Shown here in pieces: positions 1 to 30,428 of a stretch of DNA of 30,428 nucleotides. A model generated the notes under the pieces. It ran no database searches. It was not told where the DNA came from and saw only the letters and a list, made by a program, of their open reading frames with translations. The position numbers were made by a program, and so were the translations under genes. Source of the DNA: Stentor roeselii. Taxonomy: Eukaryota; Ciliophora; Heterotrichea; Heterotrichida; Stentoridae. The stretch spans positions 1 through 30,428 of the forward strand of contig RSEH01000384.1 of the NCBI GenBank assembly GCA_006503475.1, in the 5' to 3' direction. Numbering within the stretch: position 1 is the stretch's first letter; every line of letters starts with the position of its first letter.

Positions 1-61
1 CTGCCTCACGGAATAGTTTTAGCTTTTTTACTAGGTCTTTAACGATTGGGTTTTCTGACAT
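1..61 (-). CDS. 5' end of a gene running off the left edge
   Basis: An ATG at 61-59 opens a frame of 20 complete codons that is still open at the window edge. It reads MSENPIVKDLVKKLKLFREA, a lysine- and leucine-rich, probably helical start. The bases behind the ATG (62-120 on the plus strand) are C-poor and G-rich, which is the composition seen behind the other minus-strand starts here and supports a real gene start. Too little is visible to name the protein. Confidence 0.5.
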   Translation of the reverse strand, partial: MSENPIVKDLVKKLKLFREA

Positions 62-714
62 TTATACTGGGGGTGCTTTATATTATTTAGTTGTGAATAT
101 TTTTAAAGTGAAGGTTAGGTTATTGGATAAATTCAATGTTTTAGACGTTTTCTCAGTTAATAAATTAGTAGAAATATGTTAATTGTCTATGATCATCAAC
201 TTCGATTTTTTCATGTACGATAAATTTAGGAAAAATTCAGAATTTAAGATGATATCTGTAATTATGGGATATGAATGAGTGTAAAATCAAATAAGATCTT
301 TTATTTATCATTTGAATTATGATCTTTTATTAATAGAAATCTCTTAGTTTTAGGCAGGTGGTATTTAAATATCATGTTGTTCAATTAAACGTTGGATTAA
401 TATTGTTATATTCTCTCTTAAGGTGAGTAATTCATTAGCATAATTTAATCATAATCTTGATAATTTTAGACTATTTGCTTATTCTAAATCAAAAATAATC
501 AATTACTATAATATTTGAATTTCCTTTCCATTTCTTAAAATATTAAAACTTTTTCATTCTTTTCGCTAATAAAATCACTATAATAACTTCCTGATAACAA
601 ATATAAATTTAGAAAAGAAAAAAGTACTATCATCTCTATAAACCCTGAATACTCTTCAATTATAAATTTAATTCAAAATACCTAATGTTGAAATATATTA
701 TCTATTCTAAATGA
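62..714. other. 653-bp intergenic region, AT-rich, no gene seen
   Basis: Stops are frequent in all frames and only very short ORFs occur, for example 29 codons from 188. The left part is the probable promoter of the partial minus-strand gene; the right part is the 3' flank of the ubiquitin-like gene. The words gatctttta occur twice near 295-325. I see no tRNA-like or other structured element. Confidence 0.6.
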
Positions 715-1371
715 TTACTCACTATGTTCGTTGATATAAAACCTCAAGCATTGAAAAGTTTCATTATCGCCGTCCCTAAAAGTAGAATATTTGTTTTTTT
801 GTGTGAATCCAGGATTCTTCTTTGTACTTACTTTTTTTCCGTTCCCTAGAGTTGCTTTATAATACCAAGTCGCACGCGAAAGTACTATATTATTACATTC
901 AGTAATCTTATTGCACATAGGACATATTGCAAGTTTTTCAATCATATTCCTTAAATCGAATTCTCCATATCCTAGTGTCTTATAGACATATTTATTATAA
1001 GCTTCACATTGATTGTTTTTACATTTTCCTCTAGTACTCAGTCCGGAAGATATACCACACCATTGTGGACCAGTTTGACAGTAAGAATAAGACTCTACTT
1101 GATTCATCGCATTAAAAGTTAGATTCGCTGCCATACTAAAGCCACCTCCGCCTAAAATTGGAATCAGCCTTATGGTAGTGTGGCTAGGCATATTATAGTC
1201 TCTAATTGATAGCCAATCTTCAAGCTTTTCATTTTCATATATTAAAGTTTGTTCTGAAACAGGTAGACCTTCTATATCTTGATACAAGGTTTTGAGTTGC
1301 TCAATTGTCATAGAATCATCAATATCAAGTATAAGGCTTTTTCCGTTAATTGTAAGAATTTGGATCTTCAT
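715..1371 (-). CDS. Ubiquitin-like domain fused to a Cys-rich (zinc-ribbon-like) domain
   Basis: The 218-residue protein begins with a ubiquitin-like fold of about 73 residues (MKIQILTINGKS... to RLIPIL), followed directly by GGGG at 74-77, almost where ubiquitin has its C-terminal GG. The second half carries C98, C105, C117, C122, C150, C153 and C159, including C-x4-C and C-x2-C pairs that could bind zinc, with the blocks KCKNNQCEAYN and CPMCNK. From memory, a similar ubiquitin-like plus 'GxCxNxxCxAY...CPxC' arrangement occurs in protist and fungal proteins of unknown role. A role in ubiquitin signalling is inference. The start ATG is clear and the gene ends in TAA. It is head-to-head with the channel gene, with 118 bp between starts. 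Confidence 0.85.
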   Translation of the reverse strand: MKIQILTINGKSLILDIDDSMTIEQLKTLYQDIEGLPVSEQTLIYENEKLEDWLSIRDYNMPSHTTIRLIPILGGGGFSMAANLTFNAMNQVESYSYCQTGPQWCGISSGLSTRGKCKNNQCEAYNKYVYKTLGYGEFDLRNMIEKLAICPMCNKITECNNIVLSRATWYYKATLGNGKKVSTKKNPGFTQKNKYSTFRDGDNETFQCLRFYINEHSE

Positions 1372-1489: not shown

Positions 1490-3544
1490 ATGTCCACAAG
1501 TGCAAATGACATCCTCCTGGTGATAGCTTTGGACTTTTCGCTATTTCTTGTTCTCGTGTTAGTTTTTGCAATCTACCGAAAGATCCGAAGCAAAAAAGTA
1601 GACCTCGCAAAAGAAATCACAGTTCTCCATCCTTACATGAACGAAGCCGAGCATTCCTGGCGAGTGATTTTCAGTAAATTAAAAGACATGGATTTGCCAG
1701 AAGTCTATTCAGAACTAGGTGAATGGGCATTCATGTACCTGAGTCTTCATCGTTTCTTCATAATATGTTTGATAGCAATGGGGATACCCGGTACCCTAGG
1801 GCTTCTTCTGATTTACTATTACGGTAACGACGAAGGTTCAGACAAGGACTCGATCCACCTGACAAGCATTTCTCACATCATAGACCAGCCAAACCTTCTG
1901 ATATACCCGGTTTTGTTCCTTATTTACTTTTCTCTAGTCATTTACGGCCTGGGCATCAGATTTTTGTACAACATGCTTTATTTGAGAACTTCTGATCACC
2001 TGATGAAAACTCAAAACACTGTCGTTATGATAAGAAATATTTTTAAACAACACTCTAGTAATTTTATTACTGAAAAATTGCATGAAAGTCTTGAGAAACA
2101 CTTTCAGAATTCTATTCAGTCGATTTATACTGTTCCTTATTTGGTAGAACCTTATGGATTCTATAAAAAGGTGAAAAAAAGCGAAAAAAAACTTAAACTT
2201 CTCAACCTTGACTTTGAACTTAATGGGGAGAAAACCCAGATACGAAAAAAATGTAAGAAAATGGATGGAATTTCTTTTTATGAGGCGAAAATATTTAAAT
2301 ATTCAAAAAAAATGACAGAATCTAGAGAAAAGTTTAAAGATTATAATGCTGGAGTGGCTTTTGTAATGCTTACTAATAGTACAGCAGCATATGAGTTGAT
2401 TCAATCAGGAGTTGATCCATTGTCAGAGTTAGACACAAGCAATTTCGAATGCCTTTACGCCCCGATTTCACACGACATCCTATGGGAAAACATTGGTATC
2501 GACCGTTCTTACGCACTATTAATGAAGATATTCCTAAACCTTGTATACGTTCTATTATTTTTAGTACTGATAACACCTTCAGCATTCGAGGAGTTCTTAA
2601 TAGTAAACCTTGACTACCTAGGTCTAAAGCACTTCCTGATCTCAACCCTAGCAATAAGTCTCCCTGCTCTAGTCCTCGTGATTTACCAGCTGTTAATCCT
2701 TCCTCCAGCAGTGAATCTTCTAGTAAAAAACGAGAAACACACAAAAAAACACACAAAAATCACAAGCAGTTTAAAAAAATACCTTTTTTTCCTGCTTTTC
2801 TACACCTTGTTCTTCCCAATTCTCCAACTTCAGCTCACAGGCGTGATTGAAATGTTTTTACATAAAGACTGGCAAGCGATATTAGGAACAAAAGTGAAGT
2901 ACACTGGGGAATTATTCTTTGTTTTTATTATTCATCAGATGTTTTTGAAGAATGGATTTGATTTAATCGTCGCTAGTAAATATTTTGTATCAGCAGCAAA
3001 GGCTTTGTTCGTCGCCAACAGCCGGGCGGAGGAACAGCTTTGCTTTGAAGCAGAACCTTTTGAGTTTGATTTTGAACTTGCTGTGAGTTTGAATGCTTTT
3101 GCTGTCATTTGTGGATTAAGTGTCATTTTTCCACTTATTTTAGTGCCTGGAGTCTTGTTTTTTGTTATCAGGGTAATTGGTATTTAGTACTTTGTGCATA
3201 AACATAATATTTTAACGGTTTTTTATGTGGAAAAGGAAACTTCTGCTTTTCCTAGCTTGATGACTTGCATGTTTTCTGTGTTTTTAGCGGCTTTTATCAT
3301 GCAGGTTATCACGGCTGCTACTTTGGTTCTTAGCAAGGATAAGAATTTTGTATTTTTTGGGAAGATTTGCTTGATTGCGGCTATCTCGTTGTTTTTGTTG
3401 GCTTGTATTTGGATTCGCTATGTTGTTAAGAAAGGAAGGGGAACTGCTGTGGATGGACAGGAAGCAAAGTATATTAGAATACAAGATGAAGATCTTTACA
3501 GACACCCAATGGATCGTGACAAGTCAAAAGAATATTTCAAATAG
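1490..3544 (+). CDS. OSCA/TMEM63 (CSC1-like, DUF221) mechanosensitive channel family protein
   Basis: Two exons (1490-3172 and 3188-3544) joined over a 15-nt intron give 679 residues. An N-terminal membrane segment and two more near residues 85-160 precede a basic cytosolic domain (about 165-325) that ends in the family-typical 'AFV.L...AAYEL' and 'YAPISHDILWENI' blocks. Six or more membrane segments follow (about 345-560 and in exon 2). The splice junction rebuilds RYFVHKHNILTVFYVEKE, matching the family's conserved 'Y...KYNLLYVY' region, so the intron is well supported. The family forms dimeric, tension- or osmolarity-gated cation channels in plants, animals and protists; channel activity here is inferred. 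The length is slightly below the usual 700-800 residues. The tail is short and charged. Confidence 0.9.
3173..3187 (+). other. 15-nt spliceosomal intron in the OSCA/TMEM63-like gene
   Basis: The intron reads GTAATTGGTATTTAG, phase 0, between AGG and TAC. It has GT...AG ends and A at position 10. Left unspliced, it introduces an in-frame TAG; removed, it restores a family-conserved sequence across the junction. Confidence 0.92.
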
Positions 3545-4565: not shown

Positions 4566-4756
4566 AAGTAGTTAGATTTAAGTGTTTTTTTAGGAATTTT
4601 AGGGAAAAAAAAGAGAAATTCAGCAGAAAAAGACTGAAAAGTCCACTATTCAGAGTATTTTGAAGTGATTTCATTATCATTAAGACGATCACTCATCACC
4701 ATAATATTTATTATCCCAAAATGGAGTCAAAATTCCATAAATCTTACAAAACATAA

Positions 4757-4766
4757 CCTTATTAAA
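4757..4766 (+). promoter_or_regulatory. CCTTATTAAA upstream motif
   Basis: This 10-mer ends 17 bp before the ATG of the LRR/EF-hand gene. Close variants (CCTTAATAAA at 15175 and 19731, CCTTAATATT at 17969, TCTTATTAAA at 12227) also lie within about 50 bp upstream of plus-strand starts. It may be a core-promoter or initiator element, but AT-rich DNA makes chance matches likely. Confidence 0.3.
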
Positions 4767-4783
4767 ATTTTCTTATTTAAACA

Positions 4784-6877
4784 ATGGAAGACCTGCCAGT
4801 TCTATTCGAGACCAGTCCAGACCTACAACAGATCAACTTAGAATTCTCAGAAATCGAGTCTTTAGAGCCTCTTCTGCCCTTGCTTTCCAAGTTCACCGCC
4901 CTGAAAGAGCTTCTTCTATTCGGGAACCGTCTCGAAAGTCTTCCACAAGACCTGTCATGTTTATCAAGTCTAACAAAACTCGACATTTCCAACAACCTAA
5001 TCGAAAACCTTGACCAGGCCCTTCTTTCTCTTTCAACCCTTCCAAACCTAGTCGACCTTCACTATTCAACTCAAAACGAATCAGAAGAAAAGCAGATATC
5101 ATTAAAACTTCCGAACCTTCAACTTTTAAACAACAATCAAGTCATTCACGTTTCTTATCCTTCATCTGAGAAGAGTTCAGCAGATTTAGACCAAATCGAA
5201 GAAGTGACTGAAAAATGCGAGACGACGAATCCAGGAAAGTTTCAAGAAAACGTTGCAGAAAGTCGAGAAAGTGAAATTCCTGATGTTGAAAGAACTTATG
5301 CGGCATGTGAACATTCAGGGTACTTTGGAGAAGATGCCTTTATGAGTCAGGATTATGTTGAAAAAGTTGCGATTTTATATGATGAGATCAGAGGACTTTG
5401 GCAGTCAGAAGACAGGTCAAGGGATAAAAAACTTGCTGAGGACTTCGACGAAGGCATCCGCTCGATCGTTGTTGACCTTTCAGGAGTGATTCGTTCGGAC
5501 TACTCACAGATTTCCAAGAAGCTGCACACGATCAAGTCAAAATACGAACTCGTCCTCATCTGTATTCAAAAACTTGTCGATTTTTTAATGCGAAAAAGTC
5601 CTAACCTGGGAAAGTTCTTCGTACAGTTGAATAAAATCGTGGAAGACCTTTTCAATGAACTGCTTTCAGTCAGTTTAGAAGCCTTCGCATCGCCTTTAGC
5701 TTCAAATGCGAGTCTTGAGCCGAAGTCGCCAAAGTCACCAAGAATGGAAAGTTTTGATAATTTTTTAGTGGAAAAAGAAATGATTTTCAAGAGGTTTGCA
5801 AATGAAAGAGAAGAGCTTTTAATGGAAATCGATGCTTTGAAAGAGGAAAATCAGAAGTACCTTGAAACTATTGTAAGACATTCAAAAAGATTCGCGGAGC
5901 AGATGGAAAGTAAAAGTTTAGATGAGGATAGAAAAGTCTCTGGAAGTGTCTTTGGGCTTAAACCGAATGGAAAAATTCTGACTTTGAGGCAGTTGAAGGA
6001 GATTATTGAAGAGATTTACGCGTCGAAAGCGAAGTACGATGAAAGGTGCCTGATGAACAAGATGCCCCGAGAGACGATGGAGCAACATATGTACAACTAT
6101 CTCAATACCAAGTACGGTTTAAAAAACTTGATTTTAGACTGGGCATCTTCAATTGTTTCATCTATTAAAAAACACTCATCGAAGGATAATGATGTAGCGG
6201 TTTTCGGAAAGATCTTGAAAAATGAATGTGATGAAGAGTTTCGCATGGTACAGACCCAGGTGAAAGAAACTGTCACAGAACTGCTGAGAATGCATTTGAG
6301 GATCAGAAACCCGATGAGGAATACTTCAGATATTCAGGATATGGTCAGTGAAAGGCTCTCTGGGTACTTGTTTCAGGAAGAATGGAATGAAATCATCCGC
6401 TACATGTATAATGAAGAGGATTCAGCATTTTTAGCACAGGAAGTCTTGAAAATCGTCAAAAAAAAACAACACCTTAATGTCCTTACCCCACCCAAGGGAA
6501 AGGTCTCTAGAGAAGAACTTGTCGTGTTGAAGGAAAAGGAAAAACTTATTAAAACTCGTGTTTTGTATAAGGACTTTATTAAGGTTTTACTTGACTTTCA
6601 GTTACAGGGACATGAAAAGTTCTTAAAACATTTTGTGAAGCTTTTTAGAGAGTTGGATACTGATGGTGATGGCATTTTGAATGAAGATGAATTTAGAGGA
6701 CTTGTCGAAGTCATGGACCTTGGGTTTTCTGAGGATGACATCGCAAGACTGCTGCAGATAATTGACCCTTATGATAATAAACAGATCACGTTTTCTGAAG
6801 CGATCACTTTGTTTTCTACTGAGTTGATTCCAATGGAAGGAATCGCGGTGATGAAGAAGTTATCATTAAATGACTAG
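4784..6877 (+). CDS. LRR, coiled-coil and EF-hand protein
   Basis: The single-exon protein has 697 residues. Residues about 14-125 hold four or so leucine-rich repeats (LKELLLFGNRLESLP, LTKLDISNNLIENL). An acidic linker and helical middle follow, with SPKSP-type proline-directed phosphosites near 310. Residues about 400-560 form a conserved-looking helical module (LRQLKEIIEEIYASKAKYDE, METMEQHMYN-like and YGLKNLILDWASSI blocks) that I associate, from memory only, with proteins of ciliates and algae. The C-terminus has one canonical EF-hand loop (DTDGDGILNEDE, about 624-635) and a second, weaker loop (DPYDNKQITFSE). Calcium binding is expected at the first loop. The exact family and location are unknown; a basal-body or axonemal role is a guess from architecture and neighbours. 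Confidence 0.88.
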   Translation: MEDLPVLFETSPDLQQINLEFSEIESLEPLLPLLSKFTALKELLLFGNRLESLPQDLSCLSSLTKLDISNNLIENLDQALLSLSTLPNLVDLHYSTQNESEEKQISLKLPNLQLLNNNQVIHVSYPSSEKSSADLDQIEEVTEKCETTNPGKFQENVAESRESEIPDVERTYAACEHSGYFGEDAFMSQDYVEKVAILYDEIRGLWQSEDRSRDKKLAEDFDEGIRSIVVDLSGVIRSDYSQISKKLHTIKSKYELVLICIQKLVDFLMRKSPNLGKFFVQLNKIVEDLFNELLSVSLEAFASPLASNASLEPKSPKSPRMESFDNFLVEKEMIFKRFANEREELLMEIDALKEENQKYLETIVRHSKRFAEQMESKSLDEDRKVSGSVFGLKPNGKILTLRQLKEIIEEIYASKAKYDERCLMNKMPRETMEQHMYNYLNTKYGLKNLILDWASSIVSSIKKHSSKDNDVAVFGKILKNECDEEFRMVQTQVKETVTELLRMHLRIRNPMRNTSDIQDMVSERLSGYLFQEEWNEIIRYMYNEEDSAFLAQEVLKIVKKKQHLNVLTPPKGKVSREELVVLKEKEKLIKTRVLYKDFIKVLLDFQLQGHEKFLKHFVKLFRELDTDGDGILNEDEFRGLVEVMDLGFSEDDIARLLQIIDPYDNKQITFSEAITLFSTELIPMEGIAVMKKLSLND

Positions 6878-6961
6878 TTATTTTAATGAAAATTTTAAAG
6901 AAATAAAGTGAATATTGTCTTGTTATACTCAATAAACATCCTAATTTAAACTTTATATTAT

Positions 6962-8713
6962 TCAACTTTCTCGACTGGAAGGCCGGTACTCTCCAGTCCC
7001 GGCACTTTGAGGATTAAGTAAATTGGTCAACACTTCCTTAGTATACCTCAATCTCTTCGCCATTTCCCTATTCTGTGTCTCCATGGCACTACTCAACGGG
7101 TACAAGCTCGGAACGCCACTTTTATCCACATAAGTCACCATTCTCGAATCACTACAAAGTAAAAGTTCGCTTTTATCAAGAAAACTGACCTGCACAACTT
7201 TATTACTCAATCTAAAAATCACGGCATGGTCAGTAACAAGCCATTTTTTCACATAAACCAATTCTTTACTTTCATCGTTGCTTTGCTTGTCAATCGTCAG
7301 ATGTTTCCGGAAATGCTGTAAAAGAGTCACTTTTTTCTGTAATTCTGGAGGAAATGTCAAAATTCCATGTTGAACTGTTGACTCTTCTCTGCCTGAGACT
7401 CGGCTTGTGTATTGAAAATAATCTCCTCGGCTGCTTGCGATTATTTTAGTTGAATCGTTGAAGTAGACCCCTGCGCAGCCGTTTGATAACATGTAACCGA
7501 GACCGTATTTGTTGGAGTAATCCACCCATTTGCTTACCCATAGTGAAGGACCACCGGAAACAGGATTGTAACAGCTTAGAGTCGCGGTCTTTCGCGAACT
7601 TGTTGCACCTGCTGAGTCGTGTCTTGCTATTGTTTTTGTTGTGCTTTTTATCTCACGCTCTGTCATTCGACCGTCTTCGATCCTTGCTGATCTCAGGTCT
7701 TCTGAGATCCGGGTTTGTGAAGCTGACCTGGGTGGTCTCATTAGTTTAGGCTCATCTTTTGGAATTTCAAATTGTTTTAGATATGAAGAACTGGGTGGAA
7801 CTGCTAATGTACTTGCAGGAAGTAGTCTTGGGATTGAATTCCTAGTCATAAAGGGATGTGCAAGAATATCATCCATTGAAGGCCTGGCTGAGGGGTCACT
7901 TACTAGAATTTCTGATATTAGGTTCTTTGCTTCAACGGAGATATTAACTTGCTCAGGAAATGAGTAAGCATTCATCTTGATCCTCCTATAAGTTAACTTA
8001 ACATCATTAGTCTCAAAAGGCGGTTTACCAATCAACATAGTATAAACAAGTACGCCAAGACTCCAAACATCCACTTCATACGAATGTCCATGTCCCCCAT
8101 CAAGAATCTCAGGCGCAATATAATTCGGAGTTCCACAAATAGTCCTTTTCCTTTCCCCATCAAATTCCAATTTAGTAGCAAGTCCAAAATCTCCAAGTTT
8201 AATTTCCATCTTTTCACTTAAAAACAAGTTGCCCAGTTTAATATCCCGATGAATGACCCGGTGCGAATGAAGGTACTTTAAAGCTGAGACAACTTGAAAC
8301 GTGTAACTTTGAACTTCTATCTCCGTAAGTCTCTTTCTCCTTCGAATCAACTCGCTCAAGGTCTGGTTGGTGCAAAGTTCCAACAAAATGTAAACATTTT
8401 CCGAGTCCTCAAAAAAATGCTCGAATTTTACGATGTTCGGGTGGTTTAAAGAACGATGAATTTTTATCTCTGACATCAGCTTTTGCCGGGCACGGGACTT
8501 GGTTAATGAAGCTTTGCTTATCATCTTCCCTGCTGAGATCTGCTTCGTGTCAAGTGTGAGGAACTCGTAAACTCGCGCAAAACCGCCTTTGCCTAAAAAT
8601 CGACCTTTTGAGTATTGTTTTATCCCGATTTCACCTGATGCTTTGAATAGTTTTTCTTCGATTATTTGACTTTCCTTTACTTCGCTGAGGGTTCTTGAGA
8701 TTTTTGATGTCAT
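6962..8713 (-). CDS. PLK: Polo-like kinase (PLK1-3 type) with divergent Polo box 2
   Basis: The 583-residue protein is a Ser/Thr kinase of the Polo family, which acts in mitosis, centrosome or basal-body function and cytokinesis. The kinase domain spans about 34-289: glycine loop LGKGGFARVYE (40-50), Lys63, Glu82, HRD 155-157, DFG 175-177, activation-loop Thr191 in TICGTPNYIAPE. A Ser/Arg-rich linker leads to the Polo-box domain: box 1 from LWVSKWVDYSNKYGLGY (Trp396 corresponds to human PLK1 W414) and box 2 about 487-565. The His and Lys of the human phosphate pincer (H538, K540) align with K514 and E516 (FLDKSELLLC), so canonical phosphopeptide binding is doubtful. The ATG at 8713 is chosen over the TTG at 8719. 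It ends in TGA and converges on the LRR/EF-hand gene with 84 bp between. Confidence 0.95.
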   Translation of the reverse strand: MTSKISRTLSEVKESQIIEEKLFKASGEIGIKQYSKGRFLGKGGFARVYEFLTLDTKQISAGKMISKASLTKSRARQKLMSEIKIHRSLNHPNIVKFEHFFEDSENVYILLELCTNQTLSELIRRRKRLTEIEVQSYTFQVVSALKYLHSHRVIHRDIKLGNLFLSEKMEIKLGDFGLATKLEFDGERKRTICGTPNYIAPEILDGGHGHSYEVDVWSLGVLVYTMLIGKPPFETNDVKLTYRRIKMNAYSFPEQVNISVEAKNLISEILVSDPSARPSMDDILAHPFMTRNSIPRLLPASTLAVPPSSSYLKQFEIPKDEPKLMRPPRSASQTRISEDLRSARIEDGRMTEREIKSTTKTIARHDSAGATSSRKTATLSCYNPVSGGPSLWVSKWVDYSNKYGLGYMLSNGCAGVYFNDSTKIIASSRGDYFQYTSRVSGREESTVQHGILTFPPELQKKVTLLQHFRKHLTIDKQSNDESKELVYVKKWLVTDHAVIFRLSNKVVQVSFLDKSELLLCSDSRMVTYVDKSGVPSLYPLSSAMETQNREMAKRLRYTKEVLTNLLNPQSAGTGEYRPSSRES

Positions 8714-8883
8714 TTTCAATTATATGGATATTAGGAGGGAAGTTGAGATTTCAGATGATTTTTATTGGAAAGGAAGAAAAATGAGAAATTTGGTGATTTG
8801 GAGTGATTCAGGTAAAACTGAGGATTTCAGTTATTTAACCTTGAAAAATAATGATTAAATTGCAGATTATAATTAAATAATGA

Positions 8884-9954
8884 CTAGATCTTCAGCTCTT
8901 TCTCAAATACTTCATCTGGAACTTCTATAATTCGAATATTTTTCCCATCAAATTTCTTTTTGCCCATTCGAAGTCTGGCCTGTTCCGCATGATCCGGGTT
9001 ATTAAACTCGATAAAAACACTTCCAGCTTCCGCTCCAAGTTTAACCTGAGAATTTCTAACAATCTTGCAATACCTGACATTTCCATACCCTTCAAATTCA
9101 TTTTTCATATCATTTTCAATATCCCGAAATTCATTTTCACTCATTCTCTTCAGTTCACGTTGTGCCAAGAAATCAAAAACCTTGATCGTTTTGTACTTAT
9201 GCTTGACATGCGGGTTATCAATAATCAAATTATGTCCTTTTCCCTGAATATCCTGAATAGCAGCGACAGCAACAGCTGCGGCTTTCGCAGAAGTCTCAAC
9301 ATTATCTTTTTTCGACAGAACATTTTGATTAATTCCAAGAACATCTCCAAGTGCACTAATTCCTGAAATTTCTTCATTTCTAGCAACTTTTAAAGGTCTT
9401 CCAAGCATCATGATTCCATCAAGTTTAAGTGCTTTTGTAGCTTCATCTTGTGAGGAAAGTTCAGCGACGCCCATATCTGCACAGTTGTCATCAATCCAGA
9501 CCTTTAACACAGAGTTTGAGTTATGAGGGTCAGTGAGTGAATATTCAATCATCTTCTTATTGAGAAAAGCTCTGATGTCCTCTTCGCTTATGTTGAACTC
9601 GACTGGAATGTTTGAAAGACCGACTCGCCTCGCTCGTCGATTCGCTTCGAGGACCTGGTCGATGTTGGCTGAAGCCATGTTTGAACGCGTCACCCACTGG
9701 AACCCGTCCCAGAACAATTCACTTTCTTGACCTCGACGAGGAGGCATCGACCCTGCCAGTTGTTTCAGCCATGGATGAGGAGAACGAGTCCGAGAACGAC
9801 CCACTAACCATGAAGCGGTTTCTAAGTACTCTGAATCTGTTGAACTTAAACTCGAGGAAGAATAACGTTGACGACGACGTGGAGAGTTGTGGTGACGATC
9901 TCGACGGGGACTCGTCGATCTTGAACGTCTTCTTGGCCGTCGGCTTCGGTCCAT
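8884..9954 (-). CDS. U2AF2: U2AF65-like splicing factor (RS, ULM-like, RRM1, UHM)
   Basis: The protein has 356 residues. Residues 1-60 are Arg/Ser-rich (RS domain). FWDGFQWV (81-88) resembles the U2AF ligand motif, whose Trp binds the small subunit U2AF35. RRM1-like sequence runs about 108-193 (RRVGLSNIPVEFNISEEDIRAFL... LDGIMMLGRPLKV). An alanine-rich, non-RRM stretch (about 195-245) stands where RRM2 is expected. A C-terminal U2AF-homology motif domain (about 254-345) has acidic helix 1 (SENEFRDIENDMKNEFEGYG) and GKKKFDGKNIRI in place of the R-x-F loop. The large subunit of U2AF defines 3' splice sites and bridges to SF1 and SF3B1. Absence of RRM2 is unusual. It is in tandem with PLK downstream and CEP90 upstream. 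PUF60- or RBM39-like relatives are less likely given the RS and ULM order. Confidence 0.8.
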   Translation of the reverse strand: MDRSRRPRRRSRSTSPRRDRHHNSPRRRQRYSSSSLSSTDSEYLETASWLVGRSRTRSPHPWLKQLAGSMPPRRGQESELFWDGFQWVTRSNMASANIDQVLEANRRARRVGLSNIPVEFNISEEDIRAFLNKKMIEYSLTDPHNSNSVLKVWIDDNCADMGVAELSSQDEATKALKLDGIMMLGRPLKVARNEEISGISALGDVLGINQNVLSKKDNVETSAKAAAVAVAAIQDIQGKGHNLIIDNPHVKHKYKTIKVFDFLAQRELKRMSENEFRDIENDMKNEFEGYGNVRYCKIVRNSQVKLGAEAGSVFIEFNNPDHAEQARLRMGKKKFDGKNIRIIEVPDEVFEKELKI

Positions 9955-15029: not shown

Positions 15030-15174
15030 TTTGGATTGCAGGAATAGTGAGATAATAAATTGTTTGTAACTGGAAGTTATTTGATGAGATGAGTTAGAGT
15101 TAAAGATTTATACCAGTTGACATTTCTTTTCCAAAAAATTTTATACCTCGATTTTTATCTTAAAACATATCAAA

Positions 15175-15184: not shown

Positions 15185-15224
15185 ATAAAAAAGTATCCTT
15201 GATATCTAAGTGAGCCAAATACAA

Positions 15225-19730: not shown

Positions 19731-19740
19731 CCTTAATAAA
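19731..19740 (+). promoter_or_regulatory. CCTTAATAAA upstream motif
   Basis: Exact copy of the 15175 motif, ending 8 bp before the GPCR start codon. If it is an initiator, the 5' UTR would be only a few bases long. Just upstream is an unusual GC-rich patch (CACCGCGGCG, about 19711-19720). Confidence 0.3.
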
Positions 19741-19748
19741 TTATCGTA

Positions 19749-20976: not shown

Positions 20977-23900
20977 ATGAAAGGCGGACGACTCTTAATC
21001 CTCGTTTTAGTTAGCTTCACTTCATCGCTTTACTGCTACCCTCCACCTTGCAAAAATTGTAAAACTGGAGTTCTTTATGAAGATCAACAATGCATAAATA
21101 AATGTCCAGACCCTCAAGATCCAAATACCAACCCATGTTATATGAAATTCCGAGATACAATCTTTACTTTGTCCTTTTACTCATTTTCCGATATTTCTGC
21201 CAAAGCTTTTTCTTCCTTCAAAACTCCCCATGGACTTCCTTTTTCCGATTCATCAAAATTCAGTCCATTACCAACCTTAAATCAAGGATTTTATTTTAGT
21301 TCAAACAGTAGTTTAATCAATGAAATATCAAGGGTACTTTCTCCAGATTTCACCTTTCACTTATCAGCGATTTTCAAACAGCCAGGTGATGTATTCAGAA
21401 TAAAAACTCCATCTTTAACGTATTTTTACCTCAGAGTAGATGAAGGATTCCTTGTAGTTGAAATTTTGTTACAACATTTTCAGATCACAGAGATTAAAAA
21501 CTTTTCAATTCCTTTTAACAAAAATGGATGGGATATTTTTTCAATGAAAATTTACCACACTTCTAATAATTGTCTAAAATTGAATTTTACCACACTGGAA
21601 AATTTTAAGACATTCTTAGAGTGTGACTATGAGTTTCAGGTACCTGACCAGCCTTATACCATGATTTTTGGTAGTCAGACCAACTCAAGCTTCAAAGGCT
21701 TTTTGCTTGACGCGATGTGGGGAAATTCAAAAAACGAATATTTTTACAAGCCCGAGTTCAAAATGACATGCTTATGCGACTTCAACGAATACTGCTCCTC
21801 AGGAAATTGTATCCCCTGCCCAAGTAATTGCTCTGATTGGCCTTGGTGTTCTCGAGAATCGTGCACTTTTTGTTATTCAGCAGCTTGTAAGAACTGCTCA
21901 AACTATTACTTCTCCGGGTGCACAAAATGCATTGATATCAATAAAACAGCTCCAAACTGCGAATGTGGACCATATTGTGAAACATGCAAATCAACTTTTG
22001 AGTGCACTAGTTGTGTGGATCAATACAAATTAGAAGGTTCAATATGCACTTTAACTCCATATAAAAAAGGGGAAAGCAGTCTTGTCTTCAACTATGAATT
22101 CAGGACTTTTGAGCAATTCAAAGGAGATGTTTTTCAAAGTGGATCGAATAATTCGACTTATTTCCCTTTGAACCATGAATTAGATGACCCGCTTGTTCTT
22201 GATAAAAGAGGAGCTGTTTTAAGCCCTCAGTCTTATTTTATATCATCCCCTCAGGTGAACCTGTTTTTAAACTACACTTTCACTGTGAGTACCTGGACAT
22301 TTGCAGAAGTCATCATCAATTTCGGGAATTTTGTTTATAATTCTAAAGGAAAGTGCAAGATTGATTTGATGTCTACAGAAAATACAGAAACTTTTCATGG
22401 TTTTATGAAAAATCCTCAACTCACAGAATGGGTCTTTCAATCATTATCAATCGTTTTTGAGAAAAGCGAGACAACATTAAGGATGGTGATGGATAATCGA
22501 GTAACTTCACTTTTTTCGATATATGGATTCGTTTATGTGTCTTCAGGAAATTCAGTAAGGATCTATTCAAATGAATCCGCGATGATTTACTACTTGATGA
22601 TCGACCAGGTGAATATCGAAAGAACTAGAAATTTTAATGATTATGGCCCAGGTATTCCCTGCTTTTATTGGGCATATTGGAATGATTTTATCAAAGGTTG
22701 CTATTATTGTCAAAATAGTCATAATTCAATTTGTAACACCTTCGGAACTGATTCCATTTGTAAGGACTTAAACTGTTCATCATGTAATTATAATAACGAA
22801 ACTTGTACTCAAGATCGCAATGCCATATGTCACCAAGGTTTAAATTTCACCTCAGGGAAATGCTGTTATATTGATTGTTTAGACTGCTTCGAAAAATCAA
22901 AATTTGCATGCTTTCAGTGCATTCCTTCTAAGAAACTTCTCGGCCATACTTGTGTTGAGGCCTGTCCAAGTGGCTTTGATTTGAATAAAAGTGTCTGCTT
23001 ATCGAAAGTTGGTCCAGTTGTTGACATTCAATTCGACAAGATACTTTTAGAATTTAATGACTCTTCAGTATACAAAAATCTTGTCCAAGCAGGAAATGAA
23101 TCAGTTGAATATCCTTTTGTGAACCCTACCCATCCACTCCCTGCCTATCAAAGAGGGTTTTATTTTAGAGAGAAAAGTTTTGTCAGTGTCTCGGATATTC
23201 TAATGAGTTATAATTTTTCAATATTTTTTATGATACGTTTGCAAGCATCAGGAGTTATATTTCAGAAAGGTGGTATTTCTGTTTGCTTGATTGATAGCTA
23301 TCTTTACATAGAAGACAAAGTCAAGGGGTTTAATCACTCATTTAATGCTCCAAACTTTAACACCTGGCTATCCATGATAATAAACTTTTCTGGATCCATA
23401 AGTCTCTACACCTCCGTTAAAGTTTTTTCCTATCCAAATAAAACAGACTCAACATATAACCCTTCAATAATTTTTGAAACCTCATCTTCTCCAATCATCC
23501 TCGGTTCCTCATCAAATTCCTTCCAAGGTTTTATTTGGCAGTTTAGACTTTACAACTACAACTTCAAAATCCTATCAGAAGCAAATCTCTGCATAGGACT
23601 CAAAAATTCTACCTGTTTACAACCATGTGAAATAGAAGAATTCTTCAAAAACGGAAGCTGCGATTCCTGCAAAAGCTGTCCTTTAGGATGCATCAGAAGT
23701 GAAGACTGTTTCTTATGCCAAGACCCGTTGTGCAAGTCTTGCATTGACTTTGAGTTAGGTTGCGATTCTTGTAAAGAAAACTCTGTTCTGATCGATAAAA
23801 GATGTGAATGCCTTGAAGGGTATTACTTGGATCAAGCAACTTTAACTTGCAGTCATTGCAAAAATAATTGCAAAGCATGTAAAAGTGAAAACGATTGCGA

Positions 23901-26616
23901 GTGTTTCGAAGATTCCCATCAAGAAAAACTTTCCTGCGTTTGTGATACTGGATTTTGGGCGAATTCAACAAGTTCTTGCTCGAAGTGTCATGAGTGGTGC
24001 AAAGAATGCTTTGGTGACCAGAAGAGCCAATGTAAAAACTGTTCAAATTACTTAATTGGAAGTTTTTGTGTCAATGCTTGTCCTTTTGATTACTTGGAAA
24101 CTGGTCATTTTTGTGATGATCAAGGAGGCGGTTTGAGTTTAAGCTTCAGGTTTGACAGACTTGACGGTAAATTTGAGAGTAAAGGAATAAACTTGCTTTG
24201 TGGGAAATCTGGAAAGTTTTATCCTGAACTTGAATTATACGACCCTTGGCCTGCTTATCAGAGAGGGCTTTACTTTAATGATGAAAACTTCTGCAGAGCA
24301 CCTTATGCGAATAAAGAGTATTTGTTAGGGATCGAATTTAGTCTTCAAGTTTGGTTTAATCGCTTTAGTGATAAAGGAACTCTAATTAGTGTTCAAGGTT
24401 CAGGATCAAGTTTTCTAGTTTTTTTTGAAAAAGATTTGATTAGACTAGAAATCGTTTTAGATTCAAAATTCGAGTTTTCTTATTTGAACTCACTTCCTCA
24501 GGTCTGGACCCTGCTGACAATAAATGTGAAATATCAAGACTCTTGTTCTATCGCCTTCGCAGTGAACCAAGACCTGTCTTCTTATTCAGAACTAGAAAAA
24601 CTTCCTTTTAACAATTCAGACAGTTCACCTATTTACCTCGGAAGTGAAAAAAATAAAGGAAACTCATTCTCCGGGTTTATCTACGAGATGTCTCTTTACA
24701 AGTCACCTCAAAACCCTTCAAAATCTCAAAGTTTTTCAGAATCTTGCGGATTTTTCCCAGCAAATGAAAATTGTTTGCCTTTTTGCAACATTTCAACTTA
24801 CCCTGAAGAGCGAAACTGTTTCAACTGTCACAAAAAGTGTTTGAAAGGCTGCAGGAATTTAAATTCTTGCAATTTATGTCATGACTTGAACTGCTTTGAA
24901 TGTTCTGATTATTCTGCTGGGACTTGTCGTAAATGCCGAGAAGGTTTCAGAGAGTTTCAAGGAATTTGTGTTGAAATTTGCAAGAGTTTTGAATATTTTG
25001 AGGAACAAGAAGTTAAATGCAAAAGTTGTCCGATGCTTTGCCTGACTTGCCTTTCTGATGAGATTTGCTTGAATTGTTCGGATTCAGCTGAGTTGAATAG
25101 TTTTAATAAATGTGCATGCATCAAAGGCTTTAGTGGCCAAGAGAGTTGCTTTAGGAACTATTTTAACGCTTCAATATCTGTCAGTTCTTCAAATATTGTA
25201 ACTCTTCATTTTTCAGAGGTGCTAGAATCAGAACTTTCTGCAGATATTTTAAATTTGACAGTAGATTCAGTGTCCGTTCAGTTTAAGTTGAAGAAAATTG
25301 ATTCTTCCTCATATAAAATAATTTTAACAGAAAAAAACATAGAAAAAGACTCTCGAATCATTTTAATTTTCACAGCTCAAGTGATTTCAATAGAAAATTC
25401 TTTACTTTCTACAGAATTCTTAACTGCTTTACTCTTTTCGCATTATTCTAGCTCAGACTCTGAAACAATTCTCACCATCCAGTCAACAACTTCAAAAGGA
25501 ATGATCGCCTTGAGCGCTTTAAGCTTCGGTTTAGGTTTCGCTACTTTCGACATAAAAAGATTCTTCGATTTGAGGAACACTGCTGAAATTTTTTCTGTTA
25601 TTGTTTTGTCTGAAATTGAACTTGACGATTATCTCAGAGCTTTTTTGAATGAAATTCATAAAACTTCAACTTTGCCTTCTTTTTTCAATGCTTTTATTGA
25701 CTCTTCGCAAGGAGTCAGACTTCCAAGTCGCTATCGAAATTACGGGTATGAAACGAATTTTATCATTTTGAATGCTGGGATGTACTTTATGACTTTTTCA
25801 GGACTTTTTGTGGTTTATTTTCCTTTTAAGGTCTTTCACCTGGTGAAACCTAACAAATTAACTGAAATTGTGATGAATTACTTGGAATTTGATGCTTTTC
25901 TCAAATTATGGGTGCAGGGATTTCTTGAAGTTTCAGTTTGTGCGATTTTAGGAATTTGGTTTTCTGAATTTGCGAATCCGATGCAAGTGATTGATGTTAT
26001 TCTTTGTTTTTTTGTTCTGGTATTTTTCAATTAGGTCTTGAATTTTGTTGGAATCGTTGTTTTGGCCCTGCTAATTCAGAGACATTCAATTATCAAGGAT
26101 GAAGAGCAAATGAAAGACTTTTTGAAGAGATATAAAAACTTTTTTGGCGAGTTTAAACCTGGCTCTACTTGTTTTTATTATTTCATCTTCATAATAAGAA
26201 GAGAATTTATATTGGTTTCACTTTTCATTCAAGAAGAATGGCTTGAGTTATCAATTCAGTTGATTTTATCATCAGCAGTATTTTTTTATTTGATTTTTTC
26301 AAAAATTCATCTTGATTTGAACATTCTCTCTCTTCGTATCATTAGTGAAGTTTGCACCCTCGGCTTTTTCTGGGTAATAGTATTGAAATTCTACTTTCAG
26401 GTTAAAATTTCTGGTTTTGCTATTATTGGTGTTGCTGGTTTGGCTCTTTTAGCAAACCCTTTGTTTGGAATTGTTAAGATGGTGATTAAGGCAAGGGCTT
26501 GGGTAAGATCGAGAAGACAGAAGATTATGACTACTTCTGTTATTCCTGTTGATCATGTCATTGAGACTAATAAATCGAAAAATGATGCGAAATTTATAAC
26601 ATCAACGAGAAATTAA
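20977..26616 (+). CDS. Giant Cys-rich/LamG-like surface receptor with C-terminal multi-TM module
   Basis: Exons 20977-26019 and 26035-26616 encode 1,874 residues. A signal peptide (LLILVLVSFTSSLYC, to about residue 20) leads to four alternating units of a beta-rich LamG/concanavalin-like domain (about 60-250, 366-560, 677-860, 1050-1245) and a Cys-rich furin/EGF-like stretch with many C-x2-C pairs. The LamG-like domains share landmarks such as PAYQRGFYF and GSSSNSFQGFIWQFRLYNY. A further beta domain (about 1394-1490) resembles an Ig-like or Big-type fold. About eight membrane segments follow (about 1505-1840), with a conserved-looking IIRREFILVS, then a short cytosolic tail. The multi-TM part recalls fungal TRP-like/FLC domains, but weakly. 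It is probably a ciliate surface receptor or adhesion protein; ligand and activity are unknown. Numerous N-x-S/T sites suggest heavy glycosylation. Confidence 0.88.
26020..26034 (+). other. 15-nt intron in the giant receptor gene
   Basis: The intron reads GTATTTTTCAATTAG, phase 0 between CTG and GTC, with A at position 10. Removal joins VILCFFVLV to LNFVGIVVLAL, giving a long uninterrupted hydrophobic stretch; retention ends the protein inside the membrane domain. Confidence 0.92.
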
Positions 26617-26977
26617 GTAGGATTTAGATTTAGACTTTATTATTAATTATTCTAAATGCGATGCTGATTCAAGATATTAGAATTTTCATATAATTAATAT
26701 TTTTTCTGAATAATAGCTTGCACCTAATTCACAAGTTAGATAATAACTATAGTATTAATTCAACCTAGTGCATATATATATTCGGATCAATAGTTAGTTT
26801 ATAAACTGATTTTTAGAATAATATCTCGAGTAAAGATTATTCTAGTTTAAAAATCATTACTTATTATCATTAAACCTTCATACAAACTTCCATAATTAAA
26901 TTAATCTTATGATTCTATGGTAATATGTCAGGAATTATTAAGGGTTTAAACAGTCATAAAATGATTTAAATGAATTT
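26617..26977. other. 361-bp intergenic region between convergent genes
   Basis: AT-rich 3' flanks of the giant receptor and 7TM-RGS genes. It contains a 12-bp perfect palindrome AGTTTATAAACT (26796-26807) and, directly after it, the inverted repeat listed separately. No coding potential. Confidence 0.6.
26808..26855. repeat. Inverted repeat, about 15-bp stem with bulge
   Basis: GATTTTTAGAATAAT (26808-26822) pairs with ATTATTCT (26836-26843) and, after a 5-nt bulge, AAAAATC (26849-26855), around a 13-nt loop. Located between two 3' ends, it could form a 3'-UTR or termination hairpin on either transcript. The AT content makes chance formation plausible. Confidence 0.45.
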
Positions 26978-28042: not shown

Positions 28043-28530
28043 ATTCGATTGTAATTCTTATATTCTCCTAAAAAAACTTCATTATAATATCTATATGAGA
28101 CTTTGATTAAAATGAGTAATGATTATTCTTTACTCAAAAGAAAGATCTTGATCTTGAGTATTTATCAAAGTAATTTTTATATATTTTATATATATTATTT
28201 CTTTAATATTGATTGATCTTAGTGCTTCTGATTGATAAATTCTTGAGTAGGCTGATTTAAACTTTATTATCGATTGAAGCTAACTATGAATTTCACAATA
28301 TAGTAGTTACCTAAGATCTTTTATGTACAAAATAAAAAACTATTATTTAAAATTTCTTTATTACTTGCTATTAATACGAATTAAAACATACATAAAGAAA
28401 TTAGACCTTATTTAAAGGATGATCAATCAATTTTGATGAGATATGGCTTCTAAAGTGTATCTAGCTAAATGAAAGCTTATTATAAGTTTAATCCTTTTTA
28501 TTATTTTGATATATCTCTTCAAAACTATAA
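28043..28530. other. 488-bp divergent intergenic region
   Basis: Between the 7TM-RGS (-) and WD40 (+) starts. It is extremely AT-rich, with a TATATATT-type tract around 28177-28200. AAGATCTTTTAT (28313-28324) also occurs near 293 in the first intergenic region. No ORF, tRNA-like or repeat structure is convincing. Confidence 0.55.
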
Positions 28531-30428
28531 ATGGGCCATAGTTCTTCTAAAAATCAAACATCCGATGAAAACCCTGAAAGAATATCTCTTGAACAGAAGA
28601 TTTGCGATAACTATTCACTTTATTCAAATCACATAAAAGACCACCAAAAAAATCCAAATCCTTGGCCTTGCTTCTTTTCAAAAGTAAAGAGTAAAGAGAT
28701 CTCGACAGTCTGTTTTTCCCCAAGCTGTAATTTCATCGGGTATTCAGCAGAAACCAATGTAGTAATCGAGGAAGCTCACGCAATAAAGAAAGTTTTACTC
28801 AAATACAAACATCTTGACACTGTAAAAACTCTGACTTTTTCATCTAATGGCAATTTTGTTGCTTCAGGATCTAAAGACTCACGAATAATAATTTGGAACT
28901 TAAATAAATCAACTGAAGAGAAAAGAAATCTTAAGCATAATTCGGAAGTTAACTCATTGTCCTTCTCGCCTGACTCAAATCATTTGGCAGCTGGCTATCA
29001 GGATGGAGTTTTGATAATTTGGGATCTTCAGGCAGAAAGAGAACATGTCTTAGTCTCTGAACATTTGTCATCGATTAGTTGTATCAGCTACTCACCTGAT
29101 GGGACAGTAATTGCTGCGGGATCTCAAGACAAGACAATTAAAATTTGGAATCCTTTTGAACAAAAGGTAGAGTTTACTCTTATTGGTAACTATTCTTTTC
29201 CTATCACTTGTTTGTCTTTCTCACCAGACAGCCTCTTTATCGCATCTGGAGGACAAGGATTCCTAGATGTCTGGAATTTGAAATCAAAAACGATAGAGTA
29301 CCTTCAGGTTGAAATTCCAAGTAAATTAAATTCCTTGATGTTTTCACCTGATGGTTTGCTGATCGCAGCTGGTTTCACCGATAATAAAATAAGAATTTGG
29401 AATTTTCACAAAAAAATAAAAGAATTTTCTCTTAATGGGCACAAGTCATCAGTGAACAGTTTGAGTTTTTCAAATGATGGCAGGTTTCTATCAACTGCTT
29501 CCAAAGACAAAACGATAAAAATCTGGGATATTCATCAAGCAAAAAATGAAGTCGCAATTGATTTTTATTTGCATACTATTCATTCGCTTTCTTTTTCGAA
29601 TGACGGCAGGTTTTTAGCAGCTGGGTCAGTCTCAAGTATAAAGGTATGGAATTGGCAAAATAAAACAGAAGATTTTCATTTACATGGTCATTTGGCAAAA
29701 GTCGCTTGTTTGGTTTTTTCTCCAGATTCAAATAAACTTGTTTCAGGTTCAGAGGATTGTTTGATTAAGGTTTGGAATATTGATCAAAGAATTGAAGAGT
29801 TTTCGCTCTTTGGGCATAGCCTTTGTATTAATAGTCTTTGTTTTACAAATGATGGGAAATTACTTGTTTCAGGATCATCTGACTTTAGTATAAAACTATG
29901 GTGCTTAGAAGAAAGAATTGAAAAATATTCTTTTACAGGGCATCTTTTGTTGGTGAGTTGTCTTTCAATTAGTCCTGCTGGAGATTTTCTAGCATCTGGC
30001 TCGTTTGACCAAAGTATTAAAGTTTGGAATTATATTCGGTATACTTTAGAATTTTCTTTTGTCCTTCAATTTCCAATAAATTGCTTGGTATATGTAAAAG
30101 AAGGAAGTAAATTGGCTGTTGGAACCTCAGAAAATATAATTTACATCTTAAACATTCAAGAAAAAGCAATTGAATTTTATTTTAAAGGACATCGTGGGAG
30201 TATAAACTCTCTTTTATATATGTCTGAAAATCTTTTAGTCTCAGGTTCAAATGATCTATCGGTAAGGGTCTGGAATTTGCAAGAACAAATGGAAGAATTT
30301 AAGCTCTACGGAAATATAATATCAATAAAGAACTTGGCAATATCATCTGACAAAAATTTCTTAGCAGCATCCACAGGTGGTTTAATTGTAAATATCTGGG
30401 ATATAAAAAATAAAAGTCTTTCTTTCAA
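28531..30428 (+). CDS. WD40-repeat protein with N-myristoylation motif, runs off right edge
   Basis: An open frame of 632 complete codons from ATG 28531 without a stop. The N-terminus MGHSSSKN fits the N-myristoylation consensus (Gly2, Ser6, Lys7), suggesting membrane association. After about 55 residues come at least 13 WD repeats, recognisable by strand-d endings such as IIIWNLN, LIIWDLQ, IKIWNPF, LDVWNLK, IRIWNFH, IKIWDIH, IKVWNWQ, IKVWNID, IKLWCLE, IKVWNYI, IYILNIQ, VRVWNLQ and VNIWDIK, with repeated 'EFSLxGH' starts between. Thirteen or more blades suggest two propellers. No other domain is seen in the visible part; a C-terminal domain may lie beyond the window. Such proteins are usually scaffolds; the partner is unknown. 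Confidence 0.9.
   Translation, partial: MGHSSSKNQTSDENPERISLEQKICDNYSLYSNHIKDHQKNPNPWPCFFSKVKSKEISTVCFSPSCNFIGYSAETNVVIEEAHAIKKVLLKYKHLDTVKTLTFSSNGNFVASGSKDSRIIIWNLNKSTEEKRNLKHNSEVNSLSFSPDSNHLAAGYQDGVLIIWDLQAEREHVLVSEHLSSISCISYSPDGTVIAAGSQDKTIKIWNPFEQKVEFTLIGNYSFPITCLSFSPDSLFIASGGQGFLDVWNLKSKTIEYLQVEIPSKLNSLMFSPDGLLIAAGFTDNKIRIWNFHKKIKEFSLNGHKSSVNSLSFSNDGRFLSTASKDKTIKIWDIHQAKNEVAIDFYLHTIHSLSFSNDGRFLAAGSVSSIKVWNWQNKTEDFHLHGHLAKVACLVFSPDSNKLVSGSEDCLIKVWNIDQRIEEFSLFGHSLCINSLCFTNDGKLLVSGSSDFSIKLWCLEERIEKYSFTGHLLLVSCLSISPAGDFLASGSFDQSIKVWNYIRYTLEFSFVLQFPINCLVYVKEGSKLAVGTSENIIYILNIQEKAIEFYFKGHRGSINSLLYMSENLLVSGSNDLSVRVWNLQEQMEEFKLYGNIISIKNLAISSDKNFLAASTGGLIVNIWDIKNKSLSF

Follow-up and report, generated by a model that had tools for sequence, protein, structure and literature searches.

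The Stentor roeselii DNA analyzed here comes from a heterotrich-like ciliate macronuclear genome whose strand composition follows a gene-scale sawtooth. Along the coding strand, genes run from C-biased at the 5' end to G-biased at the 3' end, and this gradient equals its own reverse complement. The assignment of the genome rests on 15-nt introns (10 of 10, in a search that allowed 15 or 16 nt only), a standard code with three stops (TAA 34, TAG 27, and TGA 9 in frames of at least 300 codons), and CCCTAACA telomeres (660 pattern matches, against 0 for the reversed control). Among the telomere matches listed, those on the plus strand lie within the first 75 bases and those on the minus strand at high coordinates, in contig C13 at the very end. 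The genome also contains a match to the SPO11/TopVIA family (E 3.9e-18).

The window, a stretch of 30,428 nt analyzed at its full length, was combined with positions within 20001-40000 of 18 contigs and eight loci around 7TM genes, a non-random sample. Gene models were our own predictions, built from open frames and 15- to 16-nt introns. A set of 131 models (224,835 bases) gave the coding-strand gradient, synonymous-permutation, and base-context figures, and a set of 166 models (264,835 bases of 44.4 Mb) gave the spacer, orientation, and Pfam-confirmed figures. Pfam was searched with 10 window proteins (7 with a match) and with 50 of the 66 listed single-exon genes outside the window (33 with a match).

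Strong local skews are frequent in the window: 44 of 507 60-nt blocks show |G-C| of at least 12, whereas 100 first-order Markov simulations gave a mean of 7.5 and a maximum of 17. All seven 60-nt blocks counted by hand in a preliminary description of this DNA were exactly right, and the C-to-G gradient that it reported on the coding strand is real, although its reading of direction was wrong. Both in the window and outside it, the coding strand leans toward C in the first ~350 nt and toward G thereafter. The gradient is present at fourfold and twofold synonymous sites and reaches +0.289 in 106 genes, compared with +0.024 (sd 0.018) under synonymous-codon permutation; it thus survives the control for amino acid composition that the preliminary description had proposed, and that composition is ruled out as its source. 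A rise from the first to the last third is seen in 87 of 106 genes in all, among them 14 of the 16 that are complete in the window, not in every transcription unit as had been claimed, and an end-versus-end shuffle test modeled on McLean and Tirosh (500 shuffles here, 1000 in theirs) gives p<0.05 for 39 of the 106. The gradient is synonymous, widespread, tied to genes, and beyond protein composition. In plus genes it is +0.208 and in minus genes +0.422, each above its own null.

Over gene tenths, fourfold GC skew moves from -0.28 to +0.19 (106 genes), though not monotonically (-0.19 in the seventh tenth), and fourfold AT skew is not constant but falls from +0.06 to -0.20. C/(C+T) declines from 0.44 to 0.27 along genes while G/(G+A) climbs from 0.25 to 0.39, a rise that is absent before C (0.356 to 0.331). 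Loss of C occurs before every base, and CpG-specific deamination was accordingly rejected. The end-to-end difference amounts to 0.47 at fourfold sites, 0.26 and 0.16 at first and second codon positions, and 0.41-0.56 between intergenic edges.

The preliminary description held that the sign of the skew flips with gene orientation. On the plus strand, however, the left gene edge is C-rich for both + genes (mean -0.104, 50/75) and - genes (-0.132, 41/64), and the right edge is G-rich for both (+0.125, 50/75, and +0.169, 50/64). The flip was a misreading; the minus-gene examples cited for it were 5' flanks only, which lie to the right of their genes. At fourfold sites in the outermost gene tenths (127 genes), the orientation-independent part of the GC skew is 0.198 +/- 0.038, compared with a direction-specific part of -0.042 +/- 0.033; a skew set by transcription direction would follow gene orientation in sign, and this one does not. 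The orientation-independent part of the TA skew is 0.129 +/- 0.025 (same 127 genes), and fourfold sites on the coding strand additionally show an excess of T that is direction-specific (TA part +0.08 to +0.16). Since 5' and 3' ends share one sign, the skew marks gene edges, and its GC part has no direction. Its proposed use to tell orientation fails, with an AUC of 0.496 for the sum of the two edges and 0.430 for their difference, and it was rejected as an orientation marker; a single 250-nt step separates spacer middles from gene middles with an AUC of 0.74 in the same sample. In 40 genes with a Pfam-confirmed strand (38 with the relevant end), the 5' residual is -0.284 (p 5e-6) and the 3' residual +0.203 (p 0.003), the latter weak in + genes (0.102 +/- 0.085, 23 genes) compared with - genes (0.358 +/- 0.073, 15 genes).

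Divergent, tandem, and convergent spacers share a switch from G on the left to C on the right (left/right 100 nt, +0.26/-0.29 in 27 divergent, +0.20/-0.24 in 63 tandem, and +0.37/-0.17 in 22 convergent spacers, leaving out 28 neighbor pairs with gaps <20 or >1500). Convergent spacers, with two 3' ends and no start, thus switch like divergent ones, contrary to the earlier link of the skew to transcription direction. The expected sign is carried by 88 of 109 spacers; among the 16 window spacers listed, it is found on both sides in 10, on one side in 4, and on neither in 2 (Table 1).

Table 1. Features of the window. Outward skew is given for the left and right sides of each intergenic region; negative values agree with the pattern and positive values go against it.
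Positions	Strand	Feature	Left skew	Right skew	Basis
1..61	-	Putative gene cut by contig start, apparent 5' end (short open stretch from ATG)			Sequence read directly
61-120		Upstream flank of the 1..61 gene, G-rich on plus strand			Block counts
715..1371	-	Ubiquitin-like domain gene			Pfam PF00240
1372..1489		Divergent intergenic region	+0.08	-0.12	
1490..3544	+	10TM (CSC1/TMEM63-like) membrane protein gene; 15-nt intron 3173-3187			Pfam PF14703, PF02714
3545..4082		Tandem intergenic region (model) with G-free block 3661-3720; may contain a short upstream exon	+0.20	-0.13	
4566..4783		Tandem intergenic region, skew switch	-0.11	-0.42	
4781..6877	+	LRR/EF-hand gene, gradient visible (C early, G late)			Pfam; block counts
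6878..6961		Convergent intergenic region, two 3' ends, no start, full switch	-0.30	-0.33	
6962..8719	-	Polo-like kinase gene with POLO box			Pfam PF00069, PF00659
8714..8883		Tandem (minus) intergenic region, switch	-0.16	-0.30	
8884..9954	-	RRM-domain gene			Pfam PF00076
9955..10065		Tandem (minus) intergenic region with C-free block 9961-10020, switch; flanks one minus gene on its 5' side and the next on its 3' side	-0.14	-0.20	
10066..12204	-	Long open frame, probable coiled-coil gene			Open frame; no Pfam match
13030..13361		Convergent intergenic region	+0.05	-0.24	
15030..15224		Tandem intergenic region	-0.54	-0.19	
17648..17982		Divergent intergenic region	-0.12	-0.47	
19486..19748		Tandem intergenic region	-0.38	-0.25	
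19740..20603	+	7TM receptor gene (Dicty_CAR), gradient visible			Pfam PF05462; block counts
20604..20976		Tandem intergenic region	-0.33	-0.33	
20950..26616	+	Putative gene for a long cysteine-rich, probably membrane, protein; 15-nt intron 26020-26034			Open frame
26617..26977		Convergent intergenic region	-0.18	-0.03	
28043..28530		Divergent intergenic region	-0.06	-0.17	

The bias peaks in the ~100 nt next to the gene edge, fades ~300-400 nt inside the gene, and weakens toward the middle of long spacers. On average, the strand read from a spacer into either neighboring gene is C-rich and, in intergenic DNA near the edge and at fourfold sites, relatively A-rich. The 5' C bias and 3' G bias that McLean and Tirosh described appear here at fourfold sites and in both flanks. 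The window's own 3' flank is weak, averaging only +0.03 in its first 100 nt and turning C-rich over the next 200 nt (-0.28, -0.31); outside the window, the first 50 nt of 3' flank reach +0.23. With ATG as a proxy for transcription start, G makes up 7.2% and C 19.1% of the last 100 nt before ATG in the window (10-12% and 16-18% outside it), so that a "near-absence" of G was overdrawn.

By promoter number, the synonymous residual is -0.235 for divergent, -0.183 for tandem, and -0.118 for convergent spacers, with no significant difference between tandem and divergent 5' ends (p 0.41). Raw skew runs in the reverse order (-0.106, -0.120, and -0.195; rho 0.22, p 0.02), which we distrust because raw values contain the codon first-position G excess. 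Longer spacers have stronger skew (rho -0.34, p 7e-5), a correlation that depends much on two groups of short gaps, convergent ones <20 nt and tandem ones of 20-100 nt, and was set aside because those gaps may be false or split gene models. No such skew is found in either group, with +0.109 +/- 0.054 for 11 convergent and +0.055 +/- 0.059 for 11 tandem pairs, which may be a real exception or the product of false gene ends. AT-richer spacers are flanked by stronger synonymous-site skew (rho -0.26, p 0.011, 92 spacers), a figure that may share the fault of the doubtful gaps.

We tentatively infer that the skew is caused by strand-asymmetric germline mutation spreading out of intergenic DNA, an account that we hold to be plausible at somewhat less than an even chance and narrowly prefer to selection at the two gene ends. 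The skew would be a mutational footprint of the germline micronucleus, in which a process beginning in AT-rich intergenic regions, either break resection at meiosis or replication initiation, would expose or copy the two strands unequally. Changes of the C-to-T and A-to-G type would build up on the strand with its 3' end toward the intergenic region, so that this strand would end up with G+T and its partner with C+A. In its favor are the orientation-independent fourfold GC and TA skews, the like switch in all three spacer classes, the persistence in genes with a Pfam-confirmed strand, the C/(C+T) and G/(G+A) changes along genes, the correlation with spacer AT content, and the SPO11/TopVIA-family match. 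The similar skew at fourfold sites and intergenic edges is as expected of a force blind to coding, and published work describes the ciliate germline as silent in transcription (PMC5585995). In the flanks of human meiotic breaks, C and A are reported to be lost on the forward strand at the left and their complements at the right (PMC7615360), with the same sign as here, independence of orientation, and C and A as the bases mutated on the exposed strand; the human data are measured mutations in hotspots with resection of 1-2 kb, whereas the Stentor skew fades within ~400 nt. Leading strands in budding yeast are described as A+C enriched independently of orientation, the same sign for an intergenic origin here, but the GC skew jump is ~9% over several kb at mapped origins, compared with ~0.4-0.56 at the average spacer here (PMC3459929).

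Several observations count against the germline account: skews flanking a common spacer are no more closely correlated (rho 0.20, 129 pairs) than those at opposite ends of a gene (0.21, 110 genes), G/(G+A) does not rise before C, the 3' residual of + genes is weak, and the short-gap pairs lack the skew. Meiotic breaks are strong in S. cerevisiae and S. pombe, and yeast breaks prefer promoter spacers to convergent ones. Gene-end skew in these two species is reported as weak only (PMC3315797), which, with their strong breaks, counts against the germline account, as does the finding that convergent 3' ends are not significantly weaker than tandem ones (p 0.29), given the promoter preference.

Selection at the two gene ends, a serious but still doubtful contender, would keep promoters, leaders, and the early coding part rich in C/A and poor in G and would separately keep the 3' coding end and the trailer rich in G/T, where processing or termination signals or strand-asymmetric nucleosome-boundary elements may lie; the mirror symmetry would then reflect two regimes of like size. 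It works through the expressed macronucleus, no feature that would mark gene ends in a silent micronucleus is known to us, and the peak at gene edges with its fading in long spacers fits it. Effective population sizes of ~1e8 reported for two ciliates (PMC5585995) would also favor it. It has to treat the near-zero direction-specific GC part as a coincidence, however, and intergenic edges and fourfold sites show skew of similar size. Taken alone, the selection against G in 5' UTRs suggested earlier would leave the mirror-image 3' ends unexplained. An improbable alternative is transcription-coupled mutation or repair acting differently at initiation and at termination, which McLean and Tirosh put forward as their mutational hypothesis. 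Fungi share the coding-strand gradient, with very weak expression correlations (PMC3315797), the Halteria authors propose non-template-strand deamination for a 3' skew (PMC7858049), and the direction-specific T excess is in keeping with such a process. Yet germline copies of ciliate genes are described as unexpressed (PMC5585995), and transcription-coupled macronuclear mutations would therefore not be inherited, which makes them an awkward cause and tells against the same proposal in the preliminary description; moreover, the GC skew has no direction-specific part, and promoterless convergent spacers also switch.

Slightly less credible still is chromosome fragmentation with telomere addition, by which macronuclear chromosomes would be broken and healed between genes and intergenic edges biased as telomere strands are, C/A-rich at the left end and G/T-rich at the right. 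The sign matches the telomere of this genome, Blepharisma is reported to have 46,705 potential alternative telomere addition sites (PMC9942806), and nanochromosome ciliates show mirror-symmetric subtelomeric biases (PMC2633312, PMC7858049). However, the genes here lie inside contigs that measure up to 261 kb, and the bias extends ~300-400 nt into these genes, whereas the published subtelomeric biases span ~50-130 nt and that of Nyctotherus is described as purine rather than C/A. An artefact of gene calling, through wrong-strand frames, start choice, or stop-codon ascertainment, is very hard to credit. Models of our own making invite it, and wrong-strand calls would symmetrise the profile, but a coding-strand score, for which the longer models themselves served as the training set, led to the removal of 3 of 166 models, the skew persists in genes with a Pfam-confirmed strand, and stop avoidance does not shape fourfold sites.

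A C-to-G gene gradient has already been published for unicellular fungi (McLean and Tirosh 2011; PMC3315797), which share with Stentor a C-biased 5' end and promoter, a G-biased 3' end, and its presence at fourfold sites and flanks. By similar end-shuffle tests, 33% of Candida albicans genes and 37% of those here are significant, which does not bear out the earlier claim of a gradient much stronger than known. In fungi, AT skew, a feature of those cases that does not define gene-end GC skew, is reported to be flat and fourfold sites to resemble nondegenerate ones, whereas here AT skew changes and fourfold sites shift more; the excerpted text of that paper calls the pattern asymmetrical, with no statement of orientation independence. 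Plants and some fungi have C over G at transcription starts (Fujimori 2005; PMC555766), sharing the C excess upstream, but as a start-site peak, and the abstract is silent on 3' ends. Gene-end skew with mirror symmetry is noted for nanochromosomes of Halteria, Oxytricha, and Nyctotherus (PMC7858049, PMC3558436, PMC2633312), where gene ends are chromosome ends and the Nyctotherus skew is purine, whereas the Stentor genes are internal to contigs. The Halteria paper describes mirror symmetry as consistent with a non-transcription cause, alongside its transcription-linked deamination account of the 3' skew. Among the literature matches listed, the orientation-independent form for internal genes was not found.

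McLean and Tirosh left the cause open; their proposals were mutation specific to a stage of transcription or the need to avoid collisions between RNA polymerases (PMC3315797). The present finding bears on that question in that the GC part is directionless and occurs in organisms whose germline genes are regarded as silent, and such a direction-blind pattern speaks against the usual transcription explanation. Gene-end GC skew in microbial eukaryotes might even be, though we think it unlikely, a direction-blind germline footprint of single-strand exposure spreading from spacers rather than of transcription, clean in ciliates because their germline genes are silent. The even/odd decomposition can be applied to any annotated genome and to mutation-accumulation data, which makes the question directly testable. 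In practice, the skew helps to locate gene boundaries but not orientation.

Synonymous sites carry a strand-asymmetric gradient along the genes of this assembly. Across gene tenths of 106 complete genes, fourfold-site skew moves from -0.28 to +0.19, not strictly monotonically. The synonymous gradient is +0.289, versus +0.024 (sd 0.018) after within-gene shuffling of synonymous codons, and thus persists with amino-acid composition controlled; the same measure is +0.265 in the 90 genes lying outside the window. The preliminary description attributed the gradient to every transcription unit. Skew does rise from first to last third in 87 of the 106 genes (14/16 in the window), but the remaining genes show no rise and 39/106 pass the end-to-end shuffle test, so the gradient is a strong average and not a trait of each unit. 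In long genes (21 with at least 500 codons), the steepest change falls within the first ~150 codons, and values in the interior fluctuate with no consistent trend.

The base counts originally given for seven 60-nt blocks were all exact on recount. Blocks with |G-C| of at least 12 make up 44 of the 507 60-nt blocks of the window, versus a mean of 7.5 and a maximum of 17 in 100 first-order Markov simulations. In ATG-aligned genes outside the window, the final 50 nt of the 5' flank have a GC skew of -0.22. Skew in the coding sequence is -0.12 to -0.16 across the first 150 nt, passes through zero near +350, and levels off at ~+0.1 from +500. With alignment to the stop codon, skew is +0.14 to +0.16 over the final 100 nt of coding sequence and +0.23 over the 50 nt of 3' flank that follow. 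Window genes match these in 5' flank and coding sequence; their 3' flank reaches just +0.03 (first 100 nt) and then becomes C-rich.

A 5'-to-3' gradient from C to G looks the same on the reverse complement. Read on the plus strand, the left and right edges have skews of -0.104 and +0.125 in 75 plus-strand genes, and of -0.132 and +0.169 in 64 minus-strand genes; the sign therefore does not flip with gene orientation, as had been proposed, and the apparent flip is an artefact of comparing only the 5' flanks of minus-strand genes with plus-strand genes. Nor does skew serve as an orientation marker (edge-skew AUC 0.496 for the sum of edges, 0.430 for the difference). When fourfold skew of 127 genes was split, the outermost tenths had an orientation-independent GC part of 0.198 ± 0.038 and a direction-specific part of -0.042 ± 0.033; the latter differed from zero by no more than 2 standard errors at any of the five positions. 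TA skew has both an orientation-independent part (0.129 ± 0.025, outermost tenths) and a direction-specific one, in which T exceeds A on the coding strand (+0.08 to +0.16, depending on position). This T excess, which has no GC counterpart, may genuinely stem from transcription or from a codon effect.

Spacers switch from G-rich to C-rich whatever the orientation of their neighbors. The left and right 100 nt are +0.26 and -0.29 in divergent spacers (27), +0.20 and -0.24 in tandem spacers (63), where the switch point lies ~100 nt past the stop codon, and +0.37 and -0.17 in convergent spacers (22). As convergent spacers contain no gene start yet switch, a promoter or leader is unnecessary. The expected sign was found in 88/109 spacers, and at both sides in 10/16 window spacers. 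Wrong-strand gene calls do not account for the pattern, given a coding-score filter (3/166 gene models failed and were removed) and 40 genes with Pfam-confirmed strand (33/50 tested outside the window, 7/10 within it). These genes show residuals of -0.284 at the 5' end (p = 5e-6) and +0.203 at the 3' end (p = 0.003; 38 genes each), the latter weak in plus-strand genes alone (0.102 ± 0.085) and strong in minus-strand genes (0.358 ± 0.073). Two groups count against a direction-blind edge reading. Convergent pairs less than 20 nt apart (11 pairs, +0.109 ± 0.054) lack outward C skew and, unless their gene ends are false, form a real exception. Tandem pairs spaced 20-100 nt apart (11 pairs) give +0.055 ± 0.059.

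Across gene tenths, C/(C+T) drops from 0.44 to 0.27 and G/(G+A) climbs from 0.25 to 0.39, with fourfold G+C nearly constant (0.30 first tenth, 0.32 last). Between first and last thirds, C is lost ahead of all four next bases, and G is gained ahead of A, G, and T, with no gain ahead of C (0.356 to 0.331). The end-to-end change is largest at third codon positions and smaller at first and second; it is 0.47 at fourfold sites, and the two edges of intergenic regions differ by 0.41-0.56. A force blind to coding status fits best.

The source genome is a heterotrich-like ciliate macronucleus. The telomere unit published for Blepharisma, CCCTAACA, has 660 assembly matches (reversed control, 0); among the matches listed, plus-strand ones lie no further in than base 75 of a contig, and minus-strand ones at high coordinates, at the very end in contig C13. 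All ten introns of the gene models are 15 nt long (the search admitted 15 or 16 only), and all three standard stops are used by frames of 300 codons or longer (TAA 34, TAG 27, TGA 9); the standard code and 15-16-nt introns are reported for Stentor in the accessible text of PMC9505925. For the 7TM family, PF00001 has 10 genomic matches at E<=0.001, four with one stop inside the match.

Features located in the assembly
Feature	Position	Remarks
The window	1-30428 of contig C327	Assembly of 44.4 Mb, 522 contigs
Polo-like kinase	Window 6962-8719	Kinase domain and POLO boxes
7TM gene	Window 19740-20603	Slime-mould cAMP-receptor-like / rhodopsin-like family; family also at loci L001-L008
Cysteine-rich repeat protein gene	Window 20950-26616	~1,880 residues; 15-nt intron near 3' end
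SPO11/TopVIA N-terminal match	G000:C316:14907-15089	Single match, in a 385-aa open frame

The anatomy of the skew is demonstrated, and all mechanisms are proposals. Transcription-coupled mutation is improbable: PMC5585995, in the part available, describes a transcriptionally silent germline nucleus in ciliates, and changes tied to transcription in the macronucleus would then not be inherited. This leaves selection or a between-gene germline process. Composition linked to fragmentation is unlikely. Tentatively, and by a narrow margin over selection acting at both gene ends, we favor a mutational germline origin, in which a strand-asymmetric process would be initiated between genes. Mutation flanking human meiotic breaks, where C and A of the exposed strand are the bases that change, has the right sign on our reading of the excerpted study (PMC7615360), as does the A+C enrichment of leading strands reported in budding yeasts (PMC3459929, in part).

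Related patterns have been published. The available text of McLean and Tirosh (PMC3315797) describes the same coding-strand C-to-G gradient in unicellular fungi, significant in 33% of C. albicans genes. Gene-end or subtelomeric skews appear in accounts, accessible in part, of Halteria, Oxytricha, and Nyctotherus; for Halteria, that portion notes that forward-reverse similarity fits a non-transcription cause and also gives a transcription-linked account of the 3' skew. A limited literature survey found no direction-free skew for internal genes. The gene-end gradient itself is thus known, in fungi, and its direction-free form at internal genes appears to be new.
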